Below, in pieces: positions 365-24,457 of a DNA stretch of 38,449 nucleotides. The notes under the pieces are model-generated. The model was given only the letters and a program-made list of their open reading frames with translations, did no database searches and had not been told where the DNA came from. The translations under genes and the position numbers were made by a program. This DNA comes from Eubacteriales bacterium (GTDB lineage Bacteria > Bacillota > Clostridia > Lachnospirales > Lachnospiraceae), in NCBI GenBank assembly GCA_030536995.1, contig JAUNOY010000024.1:1-38449 (forward strand), given 5' to 3'. Position 1 is the stretch's first letter. Every line of letters begins with the position of its first letter.

Positions 365-1642
365 ATGAAAACAAAAAAAGTGACAGCAATACTTCTTGCG
401 GCAGCCGTTTCAGTATCTATGGCTGCATGTGGAAACAGTGAAAATAACAGTGCAGAAAAAAAAGAAGGAAATGAAACACTGTCTGTTGCAATTTGGGATA
501 ATATACAATTGAGTGGACTGAAAGAAATTGCAAATGATTTTACCGACGAAACAGGAATAAAAGTAGAATTTCAGGTACTCCCATGGGATCAGTATTGGAC
601 ACTTTTGGAGGCAGGAGCACAGGGAGGAGAACTGCCAGATGTATTTTGGATGCATTCTACATATTCACAAAGATACATGGACAACGATATCCTCCTTGAT
701 TTGACGGATAAAATAGAACAGAGTGAGAAAATTGATATGAAAAATTATTATGCAGATATCGCGGAATTATATCAATTAAATGAAAAAATATATGCTATTC
801 CAAAAGACTATGATACCATTGCGTTATGGTACAACAAAAAGATGTTTGATGATGCAGGAATTGAATATCCAGATGAAACTTGGACATGGGAAACATTTGC
901 TGAAACTGCGAAGAAACTTACTACAGGAGACGGAGCACAATACGGAACTGCGATTCCTGCTATATTCAATCAGGATGGTTATTATAATCTTATTTTTGAC
1001 ATGGGTGGTTATATTGTATCAGATGACAAAACAAAGTCTGGTTGGGATGACCCGAAAACCATTGAAGCTATGAATTGGTTTTATGATAATGTAGTGACTA
1101 CTTCGATGCCAACTCAGGAAATTATGGGAGAATCTACACCGGATGTACTGTTTGGTTCAGGTAAGATTGCAATGACATTACAAGGATCTTGGATGGTAAA
1201 TTCTTTGAAAGAGAATGATTATGTAAAAGAGAATTGTGATATAGCAGTACTTCCTATGGCGGAAGATGGAACAAGAAAATCTATCTATAATGGTCTTGGC
1301 TGGGCAGCCGCAGCAGATGGAAAAAATACAGAAAATGCATGGAAACTTATAGAGTACTTTGGAACAGAGGAGGCACAGAAAAAGCAAGCTGAATTAGGCG
1401 TTACAATGTCTGCATATATGGGAACTTCTGATGCATGGGCAAAAAGTTCACCTGAATTCAATCTTCAGGCATATCTTGACATGACAAAAGATATGGAAAT
1501 CCGTCCATATACAAGAAACACAAAAATTTGGGAAGATTATTCTCAGGATGTTATGAAACGTGTTTATATGAATGAAATTACTATGGAAGAGGGCTGTAAA
1601 GATATTGCGGCATATATGAATGAAAGTATTGCAGAAGAATAG
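365..1642 (+). CDS. Sugar ABC transporter substrate-binding lipoprotein (family 1 / MalE-like)
   Basis: Extracellular solute-binding protein of a carbohydrate importer, 425 aa, the usual length. The N-terminus has a charged start (MKTKK), a hydrophobic stretch and a lipobox-like SMAAC, so Cys22 is the likely lipidation site and the protein would be tethered outside the membrane. Family features visible are the LPDVFWMH region after about residue 85, the IPKDYDTIALWYNKKMFDDAG block, and the FGSGKIAMTLQGSW block typical of family 1 sugar-binding proteins. Two permease genes follow 37 bases downstream. The adjacent GH36 enzyme suggests alpha-galactosides (raffinose, melibiose, stachyose) as ligand; this is inference. 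The gene is more A+T-rich than the permease genes after it. Confidence 0.9.
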   Translation: MKTKKVTAILLAAAVSVSMAACGNSENNSAEKKEGNETLSVAIWDNIQLSGLKEIANDFTDETGIKVEFQVLPWDQYWTLLEAGAQGGELPDVFWMHSTYSQRYMDNDILLDLTDKIEQSEKIDMKNYYADIAELYQLNEKIYAIPKDYDTIALWYNKKMFDDAGIEYPDETWTWETFAETAKKLTTGDGAQYGTAIPAIFNQDGYYNLIFDMGGYIVSDDKTKSGWDDPKTIEAMNWFYDNVVTTSMPTQEIMGESTPDVLFGSGKIAMTLQGSWMVNSLKENDYVKENCDIAVLPMAEDGTRKSIYNGLGWAAAADGKNTENAWKLIEYFGTEEAQKKQAELGVTMSAYMGTSDAWAKSSPEFNLQAYLDMTKDMEIRPYTRNTKIWEDYSQDVMKRVYMNEITMEEGCKDIAAYMNESIAEE

Positions 1643-1679
1643 TGACAGACATTAAGTATGACGAAAGGAAGTGATAGCT

Positions 1680-2573
1680 GTGGCTGCACCAAAGAAAGGT
1701 ACAAGTCAGGCGCGCAATGAGTTTATATGGGGATGGGCGTTTATCCTTCCCACAATGCTTGGTCTGATTATCCTGAACATTTATCCGATTTTTAAAACTA
1801 TTTACGAAAGCTTTTTTAAAACAGGAGATTTCGGAAAAGGAAATATCTTTATCGGATTTGACAACTATATCAAACTTTTTCAAGATGCAGAAGTATGGCA
1901 GGCATTGTGGAACACCTTTAAATATGCAATTGTAGAAGTGCCATTTTCCATCGCGATCGCTCTTGTACTTGCGGTTCTTCTGAACCGCAAGATGAGAGGA
2001 CGTTCTGCATATCGTACCATTTTCTTCCTGCCTATGGTCGCTGCTCCGGCTGCAATTGCTATGGTATGGAGATGGCTGTTTAACTCAGAATTCGGTCTTC
2101 TGAATCATGTATTCGGAACGAAGATTAACTGGATTTCCAACCCAAAGATTGCGGTGTTTGCAATTGCAGTCATCGGTATCTGGTCCATCATCGGTTACAA
2201 TATGGTTCTTTTTCTGTCAGGCTTACAGGAGATTCCTCACGATTACTATGAGGCTGCAAGCATTGACGGAGCAACAGGAATCAGACAGTTTTTCCACATT
2301 ACGATTCCGCTGCTTTCTCCAACCATTTTCTTTGTAATGGTAACGAGGGTAATCGGAGCCATGCAGGTATTCGACCTTATATTCATGGTTATGGATAAGA
2401 ATAATCCTGCGCTTTATAAGACACAGTCACTTGTATATCTGTTTTATCAGAACTCTTTCGTAGAGAATAACAAGGGCTATGGTTCTGCAATTGTCGTGCT
2501 TCTTCTTGTAGTCATTATGATTATGACAGTTTTCCAGAATGTAGCGCAGAAAAAATGGGTTCACTATAATTAA
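1680..2573 (+). CDS. Sugar ABC transporter permease, MalF/UgpA type
   Basis: Integral membrane subunit of a carbohydrate importer, 297 aa from the GTG at 1680. A GTG also occurs in frame at 1671, but the AGGAAG at 1666-1671 would overlap it; from 1680 the spacing is about 8 bases, so 1680 is preferred. Six hydrophobic segments are readable, and the cytoplasmic EAA loop (YYEAASIDGATGIRQFF) that docks on the ATPase is intact near residue 200. It pairs with the permease at 2585. No ATPase gene is in the locus; in many Firmicutes one shared MsmK/UgpC-type ATPase serves several sugar importers. Confidence 0.9.
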   Translation: MAAPKKGTSQARNEFIWGWAFILPTMLGLIILNIYPIFKTIYESFFKTGDFGKGNIFIGFDNYIKLFQDAEVWQALWNTFKYAIVEVPFSIAIALVLAVLLNRKMRGRSAYRTIFFLPMVAAPAAIAMVWRWLFNSEFGLLNHVFGTKINWISNPKIAVFAIAVIGIWSIIGYNMVLFLSGLQEIPHDYYEAASIDGATGIRQFFHITIPLLSPTIFFVMVTRVIGAMQVFDLIFMVMDKNNPALYKTQSLVYLFYQNSFVENNKGYGSAIVVLLLVVIMIMTVFQNVAQKKWVHYN

Positions 2574-2584
2574 GGGGGAAGGAT

Positions 2585-3409
2585 ATGGAAACAAGAACAA
2601 AAATTAATCGTGCAGTCATTCATATCGTCCTGATTCTGGTATCCATTACCATGCTGGTTCCTTTTTTATGGATGATCCTTACCGCATTTAAAACAATGAC
2701 AGAGGCAACCTCTGTAAACCCGTTTGTAATCTTCCCGAAATCATGGAAATTCGACAGCTTTAAAGAAGTCATCGAGAACATGGATTTCCTGAAGCTTTAC
2801 ATAAATACCCTCCTCCTTATTCTGGGGCGTGTGGTATGCGCAGTGCTGACTGCGACTTTGGCAGGATACGCATTTGGACGACTGAACTTCAAGGGCAAAA
2901 ACATTATGTTTTCTCTGGTTCTCTTCCAGATGATGGTTCCGGGTCAGATTTTTATTATCCCGCAGTACCTTATGGTAAGTAAGATGGGAATGCTCAACAC
3001 CATCTTCGCTCTGGTATTTCCGGGTATTGTAACCGCATTTGGTACTTTCCTTTTAAGGCAGGCGTATATGGGGCTTCCGAAAGACCTCGAGGAAGCGGCT
3101 CGCCTGGACGGCTGCAACATCGGACAGACCTTCCTGTTTATCATGGCTCCTCTGACACGTTCCTCCATGGTAGCTCTGGGAATCTTTACAGCTGTATTTG
3201 CTTACAAAGATCTGATGTGGCCTCTGATCTGTAACAAAGACGTTATGCCATTGTCAGCAGCGCTTGCAAAGATGCAGGGACAGTATACAAGCAATTATCC
3301 GCAGCTTATGGCTGCATCCCTGCTGGCATGTATCCCGATGATTGTTCTGTATCTGTTTTTCCAGAAGCAATTTATTGAGGGTATTGCAACATCCGGTGGA
3401 AAGCTGTAA
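2585..3409 (+). CDS. Sugar ABC transporter permease, MalG/UgpE type
   Basis: Second membrane subunit of the importer, 274 aa. The first membrane segment lies at about residues 10-32 and the EAA loop (LEEAARLDGCNIGQTFL) at about residues 165-185. The start is supported by the purine-rich GGGGGAAGG immediately upstream at 2574-2581. It lies 11 bases after the first permease and is surely co-transcribed with it. A perfect hairpin at 3411-3452 directly follows the stop and separates it from the convergent AraC-type gene. Confidence 0.9.
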   Translation: METRTKINRAVIHIVLILVSITMLVPFLWMILTAFKTMTEATSVNPFVIFPKSWKFDSFKEVIENMDFLKLYINTLLLILGRVVCAVLTATLAGYAFGRLNFKGKNIMFSLVLFQMMVPGQIFIIPQYLMVSKMGMLNTIFALVFPGIVTAFGTFLLRQAYMGLPKDLEEAARLDGCNIGQTFLFIMAPLTRSSMVALGIFTAVFAYKDLMWPLICNKDVMPLSAALAKMQGQYTSNYPQLMAASLLACIPMIVLYLFFQKQFIEGIATSGGKL

Positions 3410-3467: not shown

Positions 3468-4355
3468 TTAAGTCTTCATATATTGACGATAGTTTAAAGG
3501 ACTTCGACCGTATACTTTTTTAAACATTTTAGAAAAAGTTAACGGATTGGAATAACCTATTTTTTCTGCGATTTCATTAACAGAAAGAGTGGTTGTTCTT
3601 AAAAGGCGACTGCCCTGTTCAAGTCTGTAAGATAAAAGATATTCCTGAGGCGACACATGCAGACGGTCTTTGAAAATGTGCGCCAGATAGGAGCGGGTAA
3701 TACCGATATAGGAGGCAATATCACTGACTCGTGCAGTTGCATAGTGGTTATGGATATATTCTACTGCATAGTCAACATACATATCTGGTGAATAGTCGGG
3801 TTCTATTTTCTGGTGCTGATCAAGAAGATTTAGGGTTCGAGATTCAATCAAAACTGCTAGAATCTCATACAATAGGGAGGTTCGCAAAAGTTCATTTACT
3901 GCGGTAAGTTGATGGTGTGCAAGAATTTTCTCTATATAAACCAAAAATTCTTCAGGGTTTAAATAGGTATCGCGAAAAGGAGTAGATATACTTAGTCCTG
4001 CTTTTTCGAGATACCAAGCTGCCTTAAAGCCAGTGAAAGATACCCATGCATATTCCCAGGGATCTTCTGAGTCTGCACAATAGTAGATTTCAATTTCGGG
4101 TGGAACAATGAAAGTTTGACCACGATGGAGGTTATATGTCTTATCTTCGATTTTTAGAATGCCCTTTCCGGAAAGGATGAAATGCAAATGGTAATCATCT
4201 CTGATACAAGGACCAAAAGAATGATTAGGTGCACATCGTTCAATTCCGGAAACAGTAAGACACAGTTCTTCATTTTGGGTGAGGGGGCTGCAAAGCAGAC
4301 GATAAGTCCCAGTGACACAGTAAGTGGTTTTTTCTACACGTGCTTCATGAGCCAT
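3468..4355 (-). CDS. AraC-family transcriptional regulator with N-terminal sugar-sensing cupin
   Basis: 295 aa. Residues about 40-110 form a cupin-like AraC ligand-binding domain (HLHFILSGKGILKIEDKTY, HRGQTFIVPPE). Residues about 190-293 are the double helix-turn-helix DNA-binding domain: first helix pair around VSDIASYIGITRSYLAHIFK, second around VNEIAEKIGYSNPLTFSKMFKK, ending in GRSPLNYRQ. The start is supported by AAAGGTGG on the minus strand about 8 bases upstream. It is divergent from the alpha-galactosidase and convergent with the transporter, the usual setting for an MsmR/RafR-like activator of raffinose or melibiose genes. The inducer is not readable from sequence. Confidence 0.9.
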   Translation of the reverse strand: MAHEARVEKTTYCVTGTYRLLCSPLTQNEELCLTVSGIERCAPNHSFGPCIRDDYHLHFILSGKGILKIEDKTYNLHRGQTFIVPPEIEIYYCADSEDPWEYAWVSFTGFKAAWYLEKAGLSISTPFRDTYLNPEEFLVYIEKILAHHQLTAVNELLRTSLLYEILAVLIESRTLNLLDQHQKIEPDYSPDMYVDYAVEYIHNHYATARVSDIASYIGITRSYLAHIFKDRLHVSPQEYLLSYRLEQGSRLLRTTTLSVNEIAEKIGYSNPLTFSKMFKKVYGRSPLNYRQYMKT

Positions 4356-4390
4356 AACAAATCCACCTTTCTATGATCATTTTTATTAAA

Positions 4391-4419
4391 ATTATAACAA
4401 AATAAACATGGAAATACAA
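4391..4419 (-). promoter_or_regulatory. Likely promoter of the AraC-type regulator
   Basis: Reading the minus strand, TTGTAT (4414-4419) and TATAAT (4391-4396) are separated by 17 bases, with a TG one base before the -10 (extended -10). It overlaps the intergenic space shared with the alpha-galactosidase gene. A TATAGT at 4425-4430 may be the -10 for the divergent gene, but no -35 is evident, as expected for an activator-dependent promoter. Confidence 0.6.
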
Positions 4420-4458
4420 GGATATATAGTAAAATTGCTTAAAAGGGAGGAAAAAGAA

Positions 4459-6651
4459 ATGGCAATTAGATTTATAGAGAATGATAAAAGAATATTTCGA
4501 TTGGATACGGATGACAGCACTTATTTGATTGGGATTTGTCGGGAAGGTTACTTAGGGCATATATATTATGGTGATCGCCTTTATGGGGAAGTGGATGATT
4601 ATTTGCTGAGAACGGAAGAAGCTCCTTATACTCCTTCTATAAATAAAAGAGATAAAATAGCATTTTTGGATTCTTTTCCCATGGAGTTTTCTACAGGCGG
4701 AATAGGGGATTTTAGAGAAAGTTGTTTAAAAGTGCGAAATGAAGGCGGTAATTCAGGATGTGAACTTTTTTTTCACTCCTATAATATATATAAAGGGAAA
4801 AAAAAGCTAGAAGGTTTACCGGCATCTTTTGGAAATGAAAATGAAGTCGATACATTGGAAATTGTTTGTGAAGACTCTGTGTTGAAACTAAGAGTAATAT
4901 TAAGTTATTCTGTTTTTGAAAAAGAAAATGTAATCACAAGAAGTGTAAGACTAGAAAATAAAGGGAATGAAAAACTGAAGATTGAAAAGGTCTATAGTGC
5001 ATGTCTTGATATGGATAATCAGGACTTTGAGATGATTTCTTTATGCGGTTCATGGGAGAGAGAACGACATATACAGAGAGTTCCTCTTCATTATGGAAAA
5101 CAGCTTGTAAGTTCCATAAGAGGGGAGTCCAGTCATCAGGAACATCCGTTTTTGGCGCTGGCAACGAAGGAGACCACTCAAACTCAGGGGAGAATTTACG
5201 GAATGCATTTTGTTTATTCCGGAAATTTTATTGCTCAGGCGGAACTTACTCCTTACGATTCGATACGTGCTGTAATAGGAATTAATTCTGAAGAATTTTC
5301 TTGGAACTTACATCCGGGAGAATCTTTTCAGGCACCAGAGGCTGTAATGGTTTATTCTGGTGATGGAATTGGAAAAATGACACGTAGTTATCATACGTTT
5401 TATCGTAAACATTTGATTCGCAGCCCTTACAAAAATAAGATGCGTCCAATATTGATTAATAACTGGGAAGCTACTTTTTTTGATTTTGATTCTGAAAAAC
5501 TGCTTTCAATTGCAAAAGAAGCAAAGAAATATGGAATTGAAATGTTGGTTATGGATGATGGATGGTTTGGAAAAAGAAATAATGATAACTGTTCTCTGGG
5601 AGACTGGATAGTAAATACAGATAAAATTACTGGCGGACTAAAAAAATTGGCAGATGATGTTAATAAAATTGGTTTAAAATTTGGCATATGGTTTGAACCG
5701 GAGATGATTTCGCCAGATTCGGATCTTTATAGAAAGCATCCAGATTGGGCGATTGCAATAAAAGGGCGCGAGGCTGCATTGAGTCGTCAACAATATGTTC
5801 TGGATTTGTCGCGATCAGAAATAAGAGATTATATATACGAAGCAGTTGCATCTATTCTTAGAAGTGCAAATATTTTCTATGTAAAATGGGATATGAATCG
5901 ACAATTAAGCGATCTCGGAAGCAGTTATTTGGATGCAGAAAGTCAGCAGGAACTTTTTCACAGATATGTATTGGGTGTGTACGAATTACAGGAGAGATTA
6001 CTTACAGAATTTCCATATTTATTGTTGGAAAATTGTTCTGGAGGAGGTGCTCGTTTTGATCCGGGAATGCTATATTATAGTCCTCAAATTTGGTGTTCAG
6101 ACGATTCGGATGCGATAGAGCGTCTTGCAATTCAGGAGGGTACTGCGCTGATTTATCCATTATCTGTGATTGGAGCGCATGTAAGCGATTGTCCAAGTCA
6201 CTCTGTGGGAAGGATTACACCGTTTGAGACAAGAGGACATGTGGCTCTTGCGGGCTCGTTTGGCTATGAACTTGATATTACAAAAATTCCAAAAGAAGAT
6301 CGGGAACAGATTCCGAATCAGGTAGAACTTTATCACAAATATAATGATTTGATTAGAGAAGGCGATTATTATAGAATTGCATCTTATAGGGAAAATCATT
6401 TATATGATTGTTGGTCTGTTGTGTCAGAAGAAAAAGAAGAAGTTTTAGTTACATATGTGCAGGTTCTCGCCAGACCGAATCAACGTAGTCGTCGTATTTT
6501 GCTTCAGGGACTTAAAACTGAAAGTTATTATTGGCTTGAGGGGACGGATGAAATATATACTGGAGAAATGTTGATGAATGCAGGATTTTTGATAAAAGGA
6601 TTATTAGGAGATTTTAGAAGTAGATTGTATCATTTTTTAGAAAAGAAATAA
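4459..6651 (+). CDS. Alpha-galactosidase, glycoside hydrolase family 36
   Basis: Cleaves terminal alpha-1,6-galactose from raffinose-family sugars and melibiose; probably cytoplasmic because no signal peptide is seen. From the ATG at 4459 (RBS GGGAGG at 4445-4450) it has 730 aa, the normal size. An in-frame ATG at 4408 has no RBS. With the 4459 start the nucleophile in KWDMNR is Asp478 and the acid/base in WCSDDSD is Asp548, the same numbers as I recall for the characterised Geobacillus AgaA enzymes, which supports the start. Other family motifs present are MDDGWFG, GIWFEPEM and LLENCSGGGARFDPGM. It works with the importer at 365-3409 under the AraC-type regulator. Aga, AgaA and RafA are all used for this family. 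Confidence 0.95.
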   Translation: MAIRFIENDKRIFRLDTDDSTYLIGICREGYLGHIYYGDRLYGEVDDYLLRTEEAPYTPSINKRDKIAFLDSFPMEFSTGGIGDFRESCLKVRNEGGNSGCELFFHSYNIYKGKKKLEGLPASFGNENEVDTLEIVCEDSVLKLRVILSYSVFEKENVITRSVRLENKGNEKLKIEKVYSACLDMDNQDFEMISLCGSWERERHIQRVPLHYGKQLVSSIRGESSHQEHPFLALATKETTQTQGRIYGMHFVYSGNFIAQAELTPYDSIRAVIGINSEEFSWNLHPGESFQAPEAVMVYSGDGIGKMTRSYHTFYRKHLIRSPYKNKMRPILINNWEATFFDFDSEKLLSIAKEAKKYGIEMLVMDDGWFGKRNNDNCSLGDWIVNTDKITGGLKKLADDVNKIGLKFGIWFEPEMISPDSDLYRKHPDWAIAIKGREAALSRQQYVLDLSRSEIRDYIYEAVASILRSANIFYVKWDMNRQLSDLGSSYLDAESQQELFHRYVLGVYELQERLLTEFPYLLLENCSGGGARFDPGMLYYSPQIWCSDDSDAIERLAIQEGTALIYPLSVIGAHVSDCPSHSVGRITPFETRGHVALAGSFGYELDITKIPKEDREQIPNQVELYHKYNDLIREGDYYRIASYRENHLYDCWSVVSEEKEEVLVTYVQVLARPNQRSRRILLQGLKTESYYWLEGTDEIYTGEMLMNAGFLIKGLLGDFRSRLYHFLEKK

Positions 6652-18460: not shown

Positions 18461-19372
18461 TTGGCTAAGTATGTAGGTAAACGAATATTATTAGCCGTCG
18501 TAACGGTGTTCATTATATGTGCCATTACGTTTTTTGCTATGAATGCAATCCCGGGCGGACCATTCGATAAGGAAAAGGCTCCAACCCCTGAGGTGCAGGC
18601 AGTTCTTATGGAAAGATATAATCTTGACAAACCAGTAGGAACACAGTTCATTTTATATCTGAAGAATCTCGTACACGGAGATTTCGGTGTATCTTTAAAA
18701 ACAGGTCGTGATATTGCCAAGACTGTAAAAGAGTCTTTTGCGGTATCTGCGAAATTAGGTGGAATGGCAGCATTTTTTGCTGTGACAATCGGTGTTGTTC
18801 TTGGAAGTATCGCAGCTCTTATGAGAAATAAGTGGCCTGACAGACTGATTATTTTCTTCTCTACTCTGTTTACTGCGCTTCCGAGTTTTGTACTGGCGAT
18901 TCTTTTGCTGCTGGTATTCTGTGTACAGCTCCAGTGGATTCCGGCGTTCAGTACCACGGACAAGAACTATATTCTTCCGGTAATCTCACTTGCCCTTTAT
19001 CCAATGGCCTATATTACCCGTCTTACAAAGACAAGCATGCTGGATGCTCTTGGACAGGACTATATTCGTACAGCTCGTGCGAAAGGTGTACCGCAGGCTA
19101 AGGTTATTTTTAAACATGGTTTAAGAAATGCACTGATTCCTGTTATTACATATGTAGGTCCAATGCTTGCATTCATCCTTACAGGAAGTCTCGTAGTTGA
19201 AAATATTTTTAACTTTGGTGGTCTTGGTGCAAAATTCGTGGCAAGTATCACTAACCGTGATTATCCAATGATTATGGCAGTAACTATTTTCCTGGCTACA
19301 TTGATGGTTGTGCTGAACCTGATCAGTGACCTGATCTACAAACTGGTAGACCCGAGAATTACATTTGAATAG
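18461..19372 (+). CDS. oppB: Oligopeptide ABC transporter permease OppB
   Basis: Membrane subunit of a peptide importer, 303 aa, six membrane segments. The N-terminal segment (RILLAVVTVFIICAITFF) and the PGGPFD motif of OppB/DppB are present. The ATPase-docking loop is RTARAKGVPQAKVIFKHGLRN near residue 205. The start is TTG at 18461 with AAGGAGAG at 18444-18451. First gene of oppBCDF. Confidence 0.93.
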   Translation: MAKYVGKRILLAVVTVFIICAITFFAMNAIPGGPFDKEKAPTPEVQAVLMERYNLDKPVGTQFILYLKNLVHGDFGVSLKTGRDIAKTVKESFAVSAKLGGMAAFFAVTIGVVLGSIAALMRNKWPDRLIIFFSTLFTALPSFVLAILLLLVFCVQLQWIPAFSTTDKNYILPVISLALYPMAYITRLTKTSMLDALGQDYIRTARAKGVPQAKVIFKHGLRNALIPVITYVGPMLAFILTGSLVVENIFNFGGLGAKFVASITNRDYPMIMAVTIFLATLMVVLNLISDLIYKLVDPRITFE

Positions 19373-19389: not shown

Positions 19390-20463
19390 ATGGCTAACGA
19401 AAAAAATACATTAAAAAAGAGCCCTCTCAGCGCGCAGATCGACCTGTCCAAATTCGAGCTTGCTACAGATGCAGAGAAGGCGCAGCAGGATGTAATGAGT
19501 GAGTCTACCACTTTTTTCAAAGATGGTATGCGCAAGCTGTTAAAAAACCCTCTTGCTGTTTTCAGTATTGTTGTTTTACTTCTCATTTTTGCAACTACAG
19601 TCATTGCTCCGGCAGTAGTTCCTTACGGCTACGAGGAGATGATATCTGTAAACGGCAGACGTGATAAAACAGCAAAGAATCTTAAACCTTTTGAATGGTC
19701 TAAGAATGAACAGAAATTCATTGACGACGGCGGTAAGCTGTTCCCGCATATTCTGGGTACAGATGAGCAGTGTCGTGACTATTTCGTACGTATTGTATAT
19801 GGAACAAGAGTTTCCCTTATCATTGGTGTTTTTGCGGCAGTTCTTGTCCTTATCATCGGCCTTCTCTATGGAAGTATTTCCGGTTATGCGGGAGGCAAGG
19901 TGGACTTGATTATGATGCGAATTGTCGATATCATATATTCCCTGCCGGACATGCTGATGATCATTCTGCTGTCCGTTGTATTAAAAGAAACACTGACTCC
20001 GGTTATTGAGGGAACCGTTCTTGCGAAACTGGGAACAAATATGCTTTCCCTGTTTATTGTATTCGGTCTTCTTTACTGGGTTGGTATGGCCCGTCTTGTG
20101 AGAGGTCAGATTCTTTCTATTAAAGAGAATGAATACATTCTTGCAGCGCGTACCATTGGTGCAAAACCGGGAAGAATTATCCGTAAGCATATTCTTCCGA
20201 ACTGTATCAGTGTTATCTTTATTTCTACTGCATTACAGATTCCGTCCGCGATTTTTACTGAGAGTTTCTTAAGCTTCGCAGGACTTGGTGTGCAGGCTCC
20301 GATGCCTTCTCTTGGCTCCCTTGCAAATGAGGCCATCAAAGGTATCAACAGCTACCCGCATAAACTGATTTTCCCTTCAATCGTAATCTGTCTCCTGGTT
20401 CTTTCTTTTAACTTGTTAGGTGATGGTTTACGTGATGCATTCGACCCGAAACTTAGGAGATAA
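19390..20463 (+). CDS. oppC: Oligopeptide ABC transporter permease OppC
   Basis: Second membrane subunit, 357 aa, a little longer than many OppC because of a cytoplasmic N-terminal extension of about 50 residues and an extracellular insert of about 60 residues after the first membrane segment (about residues 80-125). HILGTDEQCRDYFVRIVYGTR is the family's conserved block. The docking loop is AARTIGAKPGRIIRKHILPN. It follows oppB by 17 bases. Confidence 0.93.
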   Translation: MANEKNTLKKSPLSAQIDLSKFELATDAEKAQQDVMSESTTFFKDGMRKLLKNPLAVFSIVVLLLIFATTVIAPAVVPYGYEEMISVNGRRDKTAKNLKPFEWSKNEQKFIDDGGKLFPHILGTDEQCRDYFVRIVYGTRVSLIIGVFAAVLVLIIGLLYGSISGYAGGKVDLIMMRIVDIIYSLPDMLMIILLSVVLKETLTPVIEGTVLAKLGTNMLSLFIVFGLLYWVGMARLVRGQILSIKENEYILAARTIGAKPGRIIRKHILPNCISVIFISTALQIPSAIFTESFLSFAGLGVQAPMPSLGSLANEAIKGINSYPHKLIFPSIVICLLVLSFNLLGDGLRDAFDPKLRR

Positions 20464-20469
20464 TAATAG

Positions 20470-21486
20470 ATGAATACAAATAACAGTGAATATTTATTAG
20501 AAGTGAATAATCTCCATACCTCATTCTTTACAGATTCCGGTGAGGTGAAAGCGGTGAATGGTGTTACCTTTAACCTGAAACCAGGAGAAATTATGGGAAT
20601 CGTTGGTGAGTCCGGATCCGGAAAAAGTGTTACTGCTTACTCCATTATGCAGATTCTTGCAGATACTGGAAAAATCACAGAGGGAGAGGTTCGTTTTAAA
20701 GGTGAGGATATCACCAAATGGGACAAGAAACAGATGGCAAGTTTCCGTGGAAAACGCTGCAGTATTATTTTCCAGGATCCTATGACAAGCTTAAATCCAG
20801 TTTATACAATTGGTAATCAGCTGATGGAAGCGATTCGCCTTCACACAGATAAGACAAAAGAGCAGGCGAAAGCTCGTGCAATTGAAATGTTGGAGCTTGT
20901 TGGTGTAAATGAGCCGGAAAAACGTATTAAACAGTACCCATATGAACTTTCAGGTGGTATGCGTCAGCGTGTTATGATTGCTATGGCATTGGCATGCGAG
21001 CCTGACATTCTGATTGCAGATGAACCTACAACAGCGCTTGATGTTACAATTCAGGCACAGATTCTTGAGTTGATGCAGGATCTCCAGAAAACACTGGGAA
21101 TGGCTATCATTATGGTAACGCATGACCTTGGTGTTATTGCTGATATGTGTGATAAGATTATTGTTATGTATGGAGGAAGTATTTGTGAGCGTGGTACTGC
21201 GGAGGATATTTTCTATTCACCGAGTCACGAGTACACAAAGGGACTTCTTCGTTCCATTCCAAAGGTGGACAGCAGTAAGAAACGTCTTATTCCGATTGGT
21301 GGAACCCCAATCAACCTTCTGAATATGCCAAAGGGCTGTGCATTCTGTACCCGTTGCGACAATGCTATGAAGATTTGTCTGGATCAGAAGCCGGAGGAAA
21401 TGGAATTAAGTTCCACACATAAAGCATCCTGCTGGATGAATGTGAAGCGTCAGATGGAAGAACAGGCAGGAGGTAAAGAAGCGTGA
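20470..21486 (+). CDS. oppD: Oligopeptide ABC transporter ATPase OppD
   Basis: ATP-binding subunit, 338 aa. Walker A is GESGSGKS at residues 46-53, the signature is LSGGMRQR, Walker B is [12 protein letters not shown], and the switch His is in VTHDLGV. The C-terminal OppD/DppD extension carries the four-cysteine pattern (CAFCTRC...C...C) that binds a [4Fe-4S]-like cluster in many members. The RBS is AGGAGA, 8 bases before the start. It overlaps oppF by 4 bases. Confidence 0.95.
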
Positions 21487-22445
21487 GCAGTGAATATCTC
21501 GTAGAAGTAAAAGACTTAAAACAGTATTTCCCAATTAACACGGGAATGTTCAGCAAAACAGATCTTAAGGCTGTAGACGGTGTATCCTTTTCCATTAAAC
21601 CAGGTGAAACTCTCGGATTAGTAGGAGAGTCCGGCTGTGGTAAAACAACAGTTGGTCGTACCCTGTTACGTCTTTATGAGCCGACAGGCGGTGAAGTTTA
21701 TTTTAACGGTGAGCTTGTTACTGACAAAAATATGAATGCACTTCGTAAAGAAATGCAGATGGTATTCCAGGATCCATATTCTTCACTTGACCCTCGTATG
21801 ACGGTTGAGGATATTATTGGTGAACCTCTGGATGTACATAAACTGTATAAAACAAAAGCAGAGAGAAGAGAAAAAATTCTTGAGCTTATGGAACTTGTAG
21901 GATTAAATGCAGAGCATGCAACACGTTATGCTCACGAATTCTCCGGCGGACAGCGTCAGCGTATTGGTATTGCCCGTGCTCTGGCTGTTAATCCGAAGTT
22001 TATTGTCTGTGATGAGCCTGTCAGTGCACTTGATGTGTCTATCCAGGCACAGGTTGTAAATATGTTCGAGGATCTTCAGGAAAAACTGGGTGTAGCATAT
22101 CTTTTCATTGCCCATGATCTTCTTATCGTTCGTCATATTTCTGATCGTATTGCAGTTATGTATCTTGGTAAGATTGTAGAGATTGGTGATGCAGACGAGG
22201 TATATGAGCATCCGCAGCATCCATATACAGAATCTCTTCTTTCTGCAGTGCCGATTCCGGATCCGAAGATTACACGCCAGAGAAAGCGTATCATCCTGGA
22301 AGGTGATGTACCGAGTCCGATGAATCTGCCGACAGGATGTGCATTCCGCACCCGTTGTCGTTATGCAACAGAGAAGTGTGCACAGGAATGTCCTACCTTA
22401 CAGGACAGAGGTGACGGACATATGGTTGCCTGCTGGAATAAATAA
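21483..22445 (+). CDS. oppF: Oligopeptide ABC transporter ATPase OppF
   Basis: Second ATP-binding subunit, 320 aa. Walker A is GESGCGKT at 48-55, the signature is FSGGQRQR, Walker B is [12 protein letters not shown], and the switch is IAHDLLIV. The C-terminal extension has Cys-rich [14 protein letters not shown]. The GTG start overlaps the oppD stop (GTGA), showing translational coupling. With OppD it forms the heterodimeric motor for OppBC. Confidence 0.95.
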
Positions 22446-22500: not shown

Positions 22501-22653
22501 GATTACATTAATTTTATGCGGTTTTAATTCGGTAAAGTGAAACCGCATAAGAGCGAACACACAGTGTTCATTTTATGAGTTTGAGGGAGGTCAGATCCCA
22601 TAACAAACTATATTCGGCAGTGGTCGAAATAACTTTTAATGGAGGGAAACACT
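22501..22653 (+). promoter_or_regulatory. Structured 5' leader of the peptide-binding protein mRNA
   Basis: Three consecutive stem-loops can be drawn: TATGCGGTTT (22515-22524) with AAACCGCATA (22540-22549), 10 bp; GAACAC (22555-22560) with GTGTTC (22564-22569), a 6-bp stem with an ACA loop; and AGTTTG (22578-22583) with CAAACT (22604-22609), enclosing GGGA/TCCC. None has a T-run, so they look like stabilisers, ligand-binding RNA or processing sites rather than terminators. The RBS GGAGGG is at 22641-22646. Confidence 0.6.
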
Positions 22654-24384
22654 ATGAACAAAAAGAAAGCAATGGCATTAGTACTTGCTGCAACTACAGC
22701 ATTATCACCTGTAACAGCATTTGCAGCAGTAGAACCTGTTGAAGGAGCAGATGTTGCGAAAAAGTCTTCTGACGCAGCACCGGACTGGCAGGAGTATAAC
22801 AATCTGATTGCACAGATTAAAATGGAAACAGACACTGCTAAACGTGAAGAGTTAATGCATCAGGCAGAGGACATCCTCATGGAAACAAATGCAATTGTAC
22901 CTCTGTATTACTACAATGACCCATATATGCTGAAAGAGAACGTGAAAGGCGTATATTCAAACGTTTATGGATTTAAATACTTTATGTTCGCAGACCCAGG
23001 CGAAGGTAAAGATGCCCTTCGTATTTACATGGCTTCAGAGCCAGATAAACTTGACCCGGCTCTGAACTCTACAATGGACGGTGGTTGTCTTGCAGCAAAC
23101 TCTTTCACAGGTCTTTGCTCTTACAACGATAAAGGTGAAGTAGAGCTTGCACTGGCAGACAAATATGAAGTAAGTGAAGATGGACTTACTTATACATTTA
23201 CAATGAAAGATGGTCTGAAATGGAGCGATGGATCTGAACTTACAGCAAAAGATTTTGAATACTCCTGGAAACGTGCAGCTGATCCTAAGACAGCAGCAGA
23301 TTATTCTTATATGTATAACGGAATCGCTACAAATGAAGACGGATCTCTTAATGTAAAAGCAAGCGAAGATGGTAAAACATTTGTAGTTAACCTGAAAGCT
23401 CCATGTGCATACTTCCTTGATCTTTGTACATTCCCGACATTCTACCCAGTACCTCAGGCAAGCGTTGAAGCAGAAGAAGGATGGGAGACAAATCCTGGTC
23501 TTTGGGCACAGGAAGCTGGATTCGTATCTAACGGTGCATTTGTTCTTAAAGAGTGGAAACACAATGAGAGCATGGTATACGAGAAAAACCCGAATTACTA
23601 TAGAGCAGACGAAGTTAAAGTTGAAAGACTTGAGTTCATGTTAAGCGATGATGACGCGGCTCCATACGCAGCATACCAGGCAGGCGACCTTGACTTTATC
23701 GATAGTATTCCTACAGATGAGACAGCAGCTGTGCTTGACAGCCCAGAGTTCCATATTGTTGACCAGTTAGGTACATACTACATGTGCTTCAACGTAAACA
23801 GCCCACTCTTTGAAGGTAAAACTCCAGAGCAGGCAAATGCTATGAGACGTGCATTCAGCATTATTATTGACCGTGAATACATTGCAGAGAACATTGGCCA
23901 GACAGGTCAGGTTGTGGCAAATACATTTGTACCGGCTATCATGCTTGATGGTAATGGCGGAGAATTCCGTGCAAATGATGATGCTTACACATATCCGAAC
24001 GAGGAAGCAGTTGGATACTTTGATCCTTCCTACGATGCGTATGAAGCGAACTGTGAAGAAGCGAGAAAGCTTCTTGAATCCGCAGGATACAAATTCGGTG
24101 ATGACGGAATGCTTTCTGATGAGACTCCACTGACTGTAACATACGTGACAAACGAAGGTGCCGGAAACGTTCAGATTGCAGAAGCACTTCAGCAGGATTT
24201 CGCAGCTCTTGGTATCGATATGGTAATTGATACAAAAGAGTGGTCTGTATTCCTGAATGAGCGTAAAGCAGGTAACTTTGATTTAGCTCGTAATGGATGG
24301 GTAGCAGACTTCAACGATCCAATCAACATGCTTGAAATGTGGACAACAGAATCCGGAAACAATGACGCACAGTTAGGTAAATGA
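22654..24384 (+). CDS. Oligopeptide-binding protein, circularly permuted, non-lipoprotein
   Basis: 576 aa from ATG 22654 (RBS GGAGGG 7 bases before; the ATG at 22639 overlaps that RBS). Residues 1-25 are a signal peptide ending AFA, with no lipobox Cys. Residues about 38-113 (APDWQEYNNLIAQIK ... AIVPLYYYNDPYML ... KYFMFA) match the C-terminal tail of ordinary OppA (in E. coli OppA the AIVPVYYYVN block lies close to the C-terminus). From residue 122 the normal mature N-terminus starts (IYMASEPDKLDPALN) and runs through LKWSDG, FEYSWKRA and YFLDLCTFPTF to FDLARNGWVADFNDP and NNDAQLGK, then stops. The tail that should follow NNDAQLGK is the piece moved to the front. All parts are present once. 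The peptide-binding role is inferred from family and from oppBCDF just upstream. Confidence 0.9.
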   Translation: MNKKKAMALVLAATTALSPVTAFAAVEPVEGADVAKKSSDAAPDWQEYNNLIAQIKMETDTAKREELMHQAEDILMETNAIVPLYYYNDPYMLKENVKGVYSNVYGFKYFMFADPGEGKDALRIYMASEPDKLDPALNSTMDGGCLAANSFTGLCSYNDKGEVELALADKYEVSEDGLTYTFTMKDGLKWSDGSELTAKDFEYSWKRAADPKTAADYSYMYNGIATNEDGSLNVKASEDGKTFVVNLKAPCAYFLDLCTFPTFYPVPQASVEAEEGWETNPGLWAQEAGFVSNGAFVLKEWKHNESMVYEKNPNYYRADEVKVERLEFMLSDDDAAPYAAYQAGDLDFIDSIPTDETAAVLDSPEFHIVDQLGTYYMCFNVNSPLFEGKTPEQANAMRRAFSIIIDREYIAENIGQTGQVVANTFVPAIMLDGNGGEFRANDDAYTYPNEEAVGYFDPSYDAYEANCEEARKLLESAGYKFGDDGMLSDETPLTVTYVTNEGAGNVQIAEALQQDFAALGIDMVIDTKEWSVFLNERKAGNFDLARNGWVADFNDPINMLEMWTTESGNNDAQLGK

Positions 24385-24420: not shown

Positions 24421-24457
24421 AAAAAGAGCATCGCCTTTTAAAGGGGATGCTCTTTTT
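24421..24457 (+). terminator. Intrinsic terminator of the opp region
   Basis: AAAAAGAGCATC (24421-24432) pairs with GATGCTCTTTTT (24446-24457), with an inner CC/GG; the T-run is part of the stem. It lies 37 bases after the binding-protein stop. Confidence 0.9.

Follow-up and report, generated by a model that had tools for sequence, protein, structure and literature searches.

Does a gene at the end of an oppBCDF operon, whose product carries the usual C-terminal segment of an oligopeptide-binding protein at its front, encode a true circular permutant, and is that order shared by its relatives? The gene lies in a 38,449-nucleotide stretch of Lachnospiraceae DNA (the window), in which oppB, oppC, oppD, oppF and the solute-binding protein (SBP) gene follow one another and precede an M24 aminopeptidase-like gene (Table 1); the SBP gene thus adjoins oppBCDF, as expected of an OppA-type gene. 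Judged from its sequence, the protein is, with a probability of about 0.88, a genuine, working, circularly permuted OppA-type SBP (SBP_bac_5; by homology, cluster C) serving an OppBCDF peptide importer. A second ABC importer, comprising an SBP_bac_1/8 protein and two permeases, occupies positions 365-3409 at the start of the window and is followed downstream by an opposite-strand ORF and then by an alpha-galactosidase-like gene (4408-6651).

The open reading frame was confirmed, and its start codon is likely the ATG at 22654, since the ATG at 22639 sits upstream of the GGAGGG ribosome-binding site. The encoded chain runs from a signal peptide through the old C-terminal segment and a seven-residue junction to the old N-terminus and onward, ending in NNDAQLGK. 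The earlier note had read off the ribosome-binding site and the terminator, which correspond to the GGAGGG and a terminator-like hairpin in the sequence, and a body running to NNDAQLGK and a stop, which is where residues 122-576 end; the moved tail that it described is real, but its bounds of 38-113 are replaced by 44-114 from the phmmer alignments to 8are and 8ay0.

Table 1. Coordinates of the oppBCDF-SBP locus in the window, the parts of its permuted SBP gene, and the second-type gene of another genome.
Feature	Position	Strand	Basis or remark
oppB permease	18461..19372	+	Pfam BPD_transp_1
oppC permease	19390..20463	+	Pfam BPD_transp_1, OppC_N
oppD ATPase	20470..21486	+	Pfam ABC_tran, oligo_HPY
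oppF ATPase	21483..22445	+	Pfam ABC_tran, oligo_HPY
Ribosome-binding site GGAGGG	22641..22646	+	Read off the sequence
Permuted OppA-type solute-binding protein, 576 aa + stop	22654..24384	+	ORF; Pfam; phmmer
Signal peptide, residues 1-24 (about), ending AFA, without lipobox Cys	22654..22725	+	By eye; regular-expression lipobox test
N-terminal linker, residues 25-43	22726..22782	+	No PDB match; varies between relatives
Moved tail, residues 44-114, C-terminal in ordinary OppA	22783..22995	+	phmmer, 8are and 8ay0
Junction of old C-terminus and old N-terminus, residues 115-121 (PGEGKDA)	22996..23016	+	Protein sequence, relatives compared
Ordinary mature N-terminus to most of lobe 2, residues 122-576, with R546 and D552	23017..24381	+	Pfam, phmmer
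Terminator-like hairpin, then T run	24421..24457	+	Read off the sequence
Second-type permuted OppA-type gene, 590 aa	L210:1523-3295, G681:C58	minus	RBS and lipobox signal; after oppC-oppD-oppF

Comparison with proteins of known structure gave the two offset diagonals that the earlier note had predicted for a permutation. In phmmer searches against the PDB, residues 116-571 matched residues 16-449 of Bacillus subtilis OppA (8are; i-E 3.6e-65) and residues 44-111 matched 453-520 (i-E 2.4e-7), while for DppE (8ay0) the corresponding pairs were 118-568 with 20-442 (i-E 4e-59) and 46-114 with 451-519 (i-E 3e-9); the two offset matches to each protein are far beyond chance. E. coli/Salmonella-type OppA (1b05) showed the same segment order, its tail stretch on its own being non-significant (i-E 0.17). 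An ordinary-order relative used as a control, L135, aligned to OppA as a single continuous match (44-571 to 17-520). The window protein is therefore homologous to B. subtilis OppA and DppE along nearly all of its mature chain, as two separate blocks, and belongs to the same transporter type, but the equivalents of OppA 453-520 stand first, and it lacks the ordinary chain order of OppA-type peptide SBPs; the two diagonals span nearly the whole parent and the old termini are joined, as in a natural circular permutation. SBP_bac_5 (PF00496; 282.5 bits against a gathering score of 32.4, residues 162-570, E 6.8e-84) is the only Pfam family in the protein, in which no cluster B sugar-binding homology (Type Ic / Cluster Bc) was found, and the NCBIfam OppA equivalog NF011684 scored below threshold (207.7 bits against a curated cut-off of 947). 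An AlphaFold model for ordinary-order relatives had low confidence (mean pLDDT 57.7) and was set aside.

A scan of 84,980 species genomes yielded 484 relatives. The tail preceded the body in all 80 of the best 80 of these 484 loci, a count that does not estimate a frequency because the loci were ranked by their similarity to a permuted query, which biases the selection towards permuted hits. The operon position was likewise conserved, with oppF the nearest upstream partner in 78 of the 80; the other two loci (L019 and L052) have just ~0.5 and ~0.9 kb of sequence ahead of the tail. Eight of the 80 carry no MAG or uncultured label (L022, L039, L040, L046, L051, L056, L076 and L081), among them the permuted gene of a complete genome, CE91-St56 (L040), and one locus with an UNVERIFIED_CONTAM flag (L039). 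L091, from a genome in the window's genus, and Blautia caecimuris DSM 29492 (L081) have identical SBP ORFs, which makes Blautia the probable genus. Ten close pairs of permuted genes, with the moved segment counted in, gave dN/dS values of 0.05-0.24, which shows purifying selection in these pairs; the two pairs involving the window gene were saturated.

The likely role of the protein, as its homology and operon suggest, is peptide capture for OppBCDF: peptides would be captured between the lobes and then delivered to OppBC. R546 and D552 align with R413 and D419 of OppA (1b05), which we take to be ligand-site residues in peptide binding, and neither position varies among the 44 permuted proteins of alignment A1; the surrounding motif occurs in 125 of the 130 permuted ORFs and in 68 of the 82 ordinary ones. 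A regular-expression search found no lipobox cysteine in the window protein or its nearest kin. A simple pattern detects a lipobox in 73 of the 105 distinct permuted proteins and in 46 of the 72 distinct ordinary ones, and the linker behind it has a median length of 47 residues in permuted against 24 in ordinary proteins. An extreme linker, acidic, repetitive and more than 600 residues long, follows the lipobox of a permuted SBP lipoprotein encoded at L116 (from about 2620, plus strand, G020:C44; also L042). At L114 (5585-8419, minus strand, G049:C269), a single ORF joins a PF00069 protein kinase domain (11-291) to a permuted SBP_bac_5 domain (533-937), with what looks like a membrane segment as well, and may possibly encode a receptor-like kinase that senses peptides.

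Two rival explanations concern the gene itself. Ordinary or tandem oppA genes could have been collapsed or mis-joined in assembly, and indeed the window comes from a draft assembly of 40 contigs (92.48% complete) and most related loci come from MAGs; yet the same order and junction type recur in all of the best 80 loci, including the eight without a MAG or uncultured label and the complete genome, and the low dN/dS values tell in the same direction, so that we regard an artefact as exceedingly improbable. Misassembly is refuted for the family by this recurrence, and the earlier note was right to argue against it. Alternatively, the protein could be decayed or sensory rather than a transport component, as its missing lipobox and the kinase fusion of its relative L114 might suggest. 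Set against this are the operon with oppBCDF, the purifying selection and the conserved ligand residues; moreover, the gene is the sole close OppA homolog found in its genome, where the other SBP match, on contig C13, has the ordinary order and 25-33% identity and adjoins OppB/C/D/F-like genes of 28-31% identity. Decay or a purely sensory function is hence very unlikely, and a true circular permutation, as first proposed, is borne out by the offset diagonals, the shared order of the best 80 loci, purifying selection and the conserved operon position.

The search of Lachnospiraceae that the earlier note had advised found many permuted relatives among gut bacteria: what could have been a one-off of this genome is instead a family trait, changed several times. 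Among 64 genomes of the window's genus, 13 have the permuted order in one ORF (the window, L084-L094 and the double copy L095). Of 397 genomes of the family, searched with E up to 1e-120, 39 had a match, which the matched range assigns to the permuted order in 27 and to the ordinary order in 12. The matches listed for 196 genomes of the order (E up to 1e-80) and 398 of the phylum (E up to 1e-60) begin at query residue 113 or later, i.e. are ordinary, except for the window and G681. The permuted order also extends beyond Lachnospiraceae, for instance to Proteiniclasticum aestuarii (L022) and to a Christensenellaceae MAG (L078). Genus-level searches around G105 and G299 gained little. One permuted SBP gene in a near-complete single-contig genome contains a single in-frame TAG (L156, G333:C1:439249-440847), and another (L152, G248, 4821 onward) lies ahead of oppB rather than after oppF.

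The ends of the permuted chains point to a common cut site. Permuted proteins end at the same loop site, NNDxQxG[KR], a few with short extensions, and their tails open with a similar [AS]xPxW motif. At this loop far ordinary relatives read NNDAQ-YSNPDYD, whereas near ordinary relatives carry a short insertion, e.g. NNDMQLGK-DSTSSA-PDWKEYD, and a sister group (L149, L144, L151, L166, L167, L169, L170 and L175) has a longer one of ~20-27 residues. Because ordinary relatives carry the insertion and the permuted ends fall at the same place with a similar tail motif, the insertion is probably older than the cut. The cut corresponds to ~441-445 in 1b05 numbering. In the part of PMC10924461 available, lobe 2 of YejA comprises residues 287-539 and lobe 1 the remainder of 579, and other oligopeptide-binding proteins have their N- and C-termini near each other in domain I. 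By analogy with these proteins, we infer that lobe 2 contains the new termini and that the join between the old ones is in lobe 1; the earlier statement that the termini belong to domain I would accordingly hold for the old pair and not for the new one. The protein would then fold like OppA, with a short linker joining the old termini in lobe 1 and the new ones exposed in a lobe-2 surface loop. Lobe 2 would thereby carry the export signal and, in many relatives, also the lipid anchor.

Ordinary orthologs with 47-63% body identity (L135-L142, L162, L164, L165, L206, L207 and L209) mostly follow the same oppBCDF genes, the neighbour of L142 being a distant OppF. For the SBP tree, the segments were set in the same order before alignment and the rows were thinned of near-duplicates and of distant ordinary proteins (<36.5% to the window), leaving 72 rows (38 permuted, 33 ordinary and 1 second-type); L095 (the L113 gene), L113, L189 and L218 (the L210 gene), and L065 and L156 (in-frame TAG) were left out. 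This tree requires 5 changes of the permuted label, 3 of them forced by starred branches, and a body-only tree (71 rows, without L208) requires 6, of which 4 are forced. A tree of the partner genes only (OppC/D/F), in which many rows hold OppF alone (less than half the columns), requires 6 changes, 5 of them forced on well-supported branches, with 5-6 in bootstraps; it retained 60 of the 72 rows (12 lack OppF) and then 59 once L142, whose neighbouring OppF is just 55% identical and ~2.3 kb away, was dropped for its long branch. Permuted and ordinary forms are thus interleaved inside one ortholog group on two trees, and the relatives appear to have switched between the two orders several times.

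Constraint tests place limits on this history. A single permuted clade was rejected (p 2e-31 on the SBP tree, p 3e-55 for the partner genes). One clade for the main permuted rows was not rejected, either for 30 rows on the SBP tree (p 0.33) or for 26 rows on the partner genes (p 0.056), so that histories of gains only and of gains plus reversals both stand. Rooted with far ordinary relatives, trees whose deep branches have moderate support only give cheapest histories of 3-4 gains and 1-3 losses.

The order most likely changed when the gene was duplicated in tandem, the copies fused in frame and their outer parts were lost, within a loop insertion tolerant of free ends. This route could also run backwards; being reversible, it would explain repeated changes. 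L113 (G055:C225, 362-5122, plus strand) is a single 1587-aa ORF with two permuted SBP units and proline-/asparagine-rich linkers; taken by itself, the middle of this ORF has the ordinary order. At L065, a decayed, frame-broken permuted copy (4000-4551) lies directly upstream of an intact permuted copy. These candidate intermediates, each from one genome, plausibly fit duplication, fusion and trimming, and lend indirect support to the tandem duplication with trimming that the earlier note had suggested. The general model of permutation by duplication, as given in the available part of PMC3320104, predicts fused tandem intermediates; L113 is of that type, but the model's examples come from other protein families.

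A different cut is found in L210, in which the second half of the body precedes the tail, a junction and then the first half of the body, as seen in three matches to DppE (44-210 with 291-441, 245-310 with 447-513 and 387-585 with 79-285). It falls close to where lobe 2 starts, in a variable loop. This second cut is a candidate from a single MAG (G681, 75% complete, of a family other than the window's) and may be an artefact. The family, order and class of G681 contain that one genome alone, and among the 15 of 397 genomes of the window's family with close L210 relatives the second cut was not found: 12 have both halves on one contig in the ordinary order, G113 and G178 are ordinary, and G455 is split over two contigs.

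How the interleaving arose admits several readings. If the ordinary order were ancestral throughout, the permutation would have arisen about five times in the same loop and never reverted. This fits with the main permuted rows passing as one clade, with a loop insertion that predates the cut and with L160, a permuted protein among ordinary relatives whose closest matches in 5 of 5 regions, moved tail included, are ordinary proteins; the best trees as they stand, however, require 10 (SBP) or 12 (partner) gains in a loss-free history under the same rooting, against 5 or 6 changes with losses, and we place gains alone somewhat below an even chance. Recombination could instead have spread the order if ordinary genes had received the end of a permuted gene from another species. 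In favour of this, L129 and some regions of L147 and L130 are at least as close to the main permuted proteins as to ordinary ones; L147 is nearest to ordinary proteins in 4 of 5 regions, and the order change of L129 is weakly supported because it is nearest to the main permuted proteins in 5 of 5. But the body-only and partner-gene trees show the same interleaving, the tail of L160 shares 84% identity with an ordinary relative but 73% with the best-matching main permuted protein, and both gene ends would have to be exchanged, all of which makes recombination improbable. A bolder reading, to which we give just short of an even chance, is that the Opp SBP family is a natural permutation hot spot, with at least 5 changes, probably in both directions, in the lobe-2 loop and one more at a second site, with fused tandem intermediates, and with the tether or export signal moved from lobe 1 to lobe 2.

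Natural circular permutations are usually viewed as old, single events. A domain dislocation is sometimes said to relate OpuAC to ProX. The available part of the OpuAC paper (PMC2861598) contains neither 'permut' nor 'dislocat'. Domain dislocation between Type I and Type II binding proteins (Fukami-Kobayashi 1999, as cited in the available part of PMC4990184) resembles the present case in that strand connectivity changed during binding-protein evolution, but it is an ancient change of core topology, whereas here the permutation occurs among 47-75% identical orthologs. The nearest precedent for a permuted OppA-type protein is Tp0684/TpMglB-2 of Treponema pallidum, a naturally permuted, lipidated binding protein of an ABC importer, proposed as 'Type Ic / Cluster Bc', whose topology, its authors suggest, may suit membrane tethering (available part of PMC4990184). 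Tp0684 shares with the window protein a natural permutation in an ABC-importer SBP and has relatives in Gram-positive gut bacteria, but it has a glucose-binding cluster B fold, not SBP_bac_5, and another cut site, and repeated order changes are not among the features reported in that part of the paper. No permuted SBP_bac_5 protein was found in the literature covered, which leaves out most subscription journals.

What is new here is that permuted and ordinary forms are interleaved within one ortholog group. Annotation by a match to the SBP_bac_5 core alone hides chain order. With one operon position and many orthologs, 47-75% identical, that differ in chain order, the family offers a system for testing the origin and reversal of permutation, and the same orthologs allow testing how moved termini affect the folding, export and tethering of an ABC-importer receptor.
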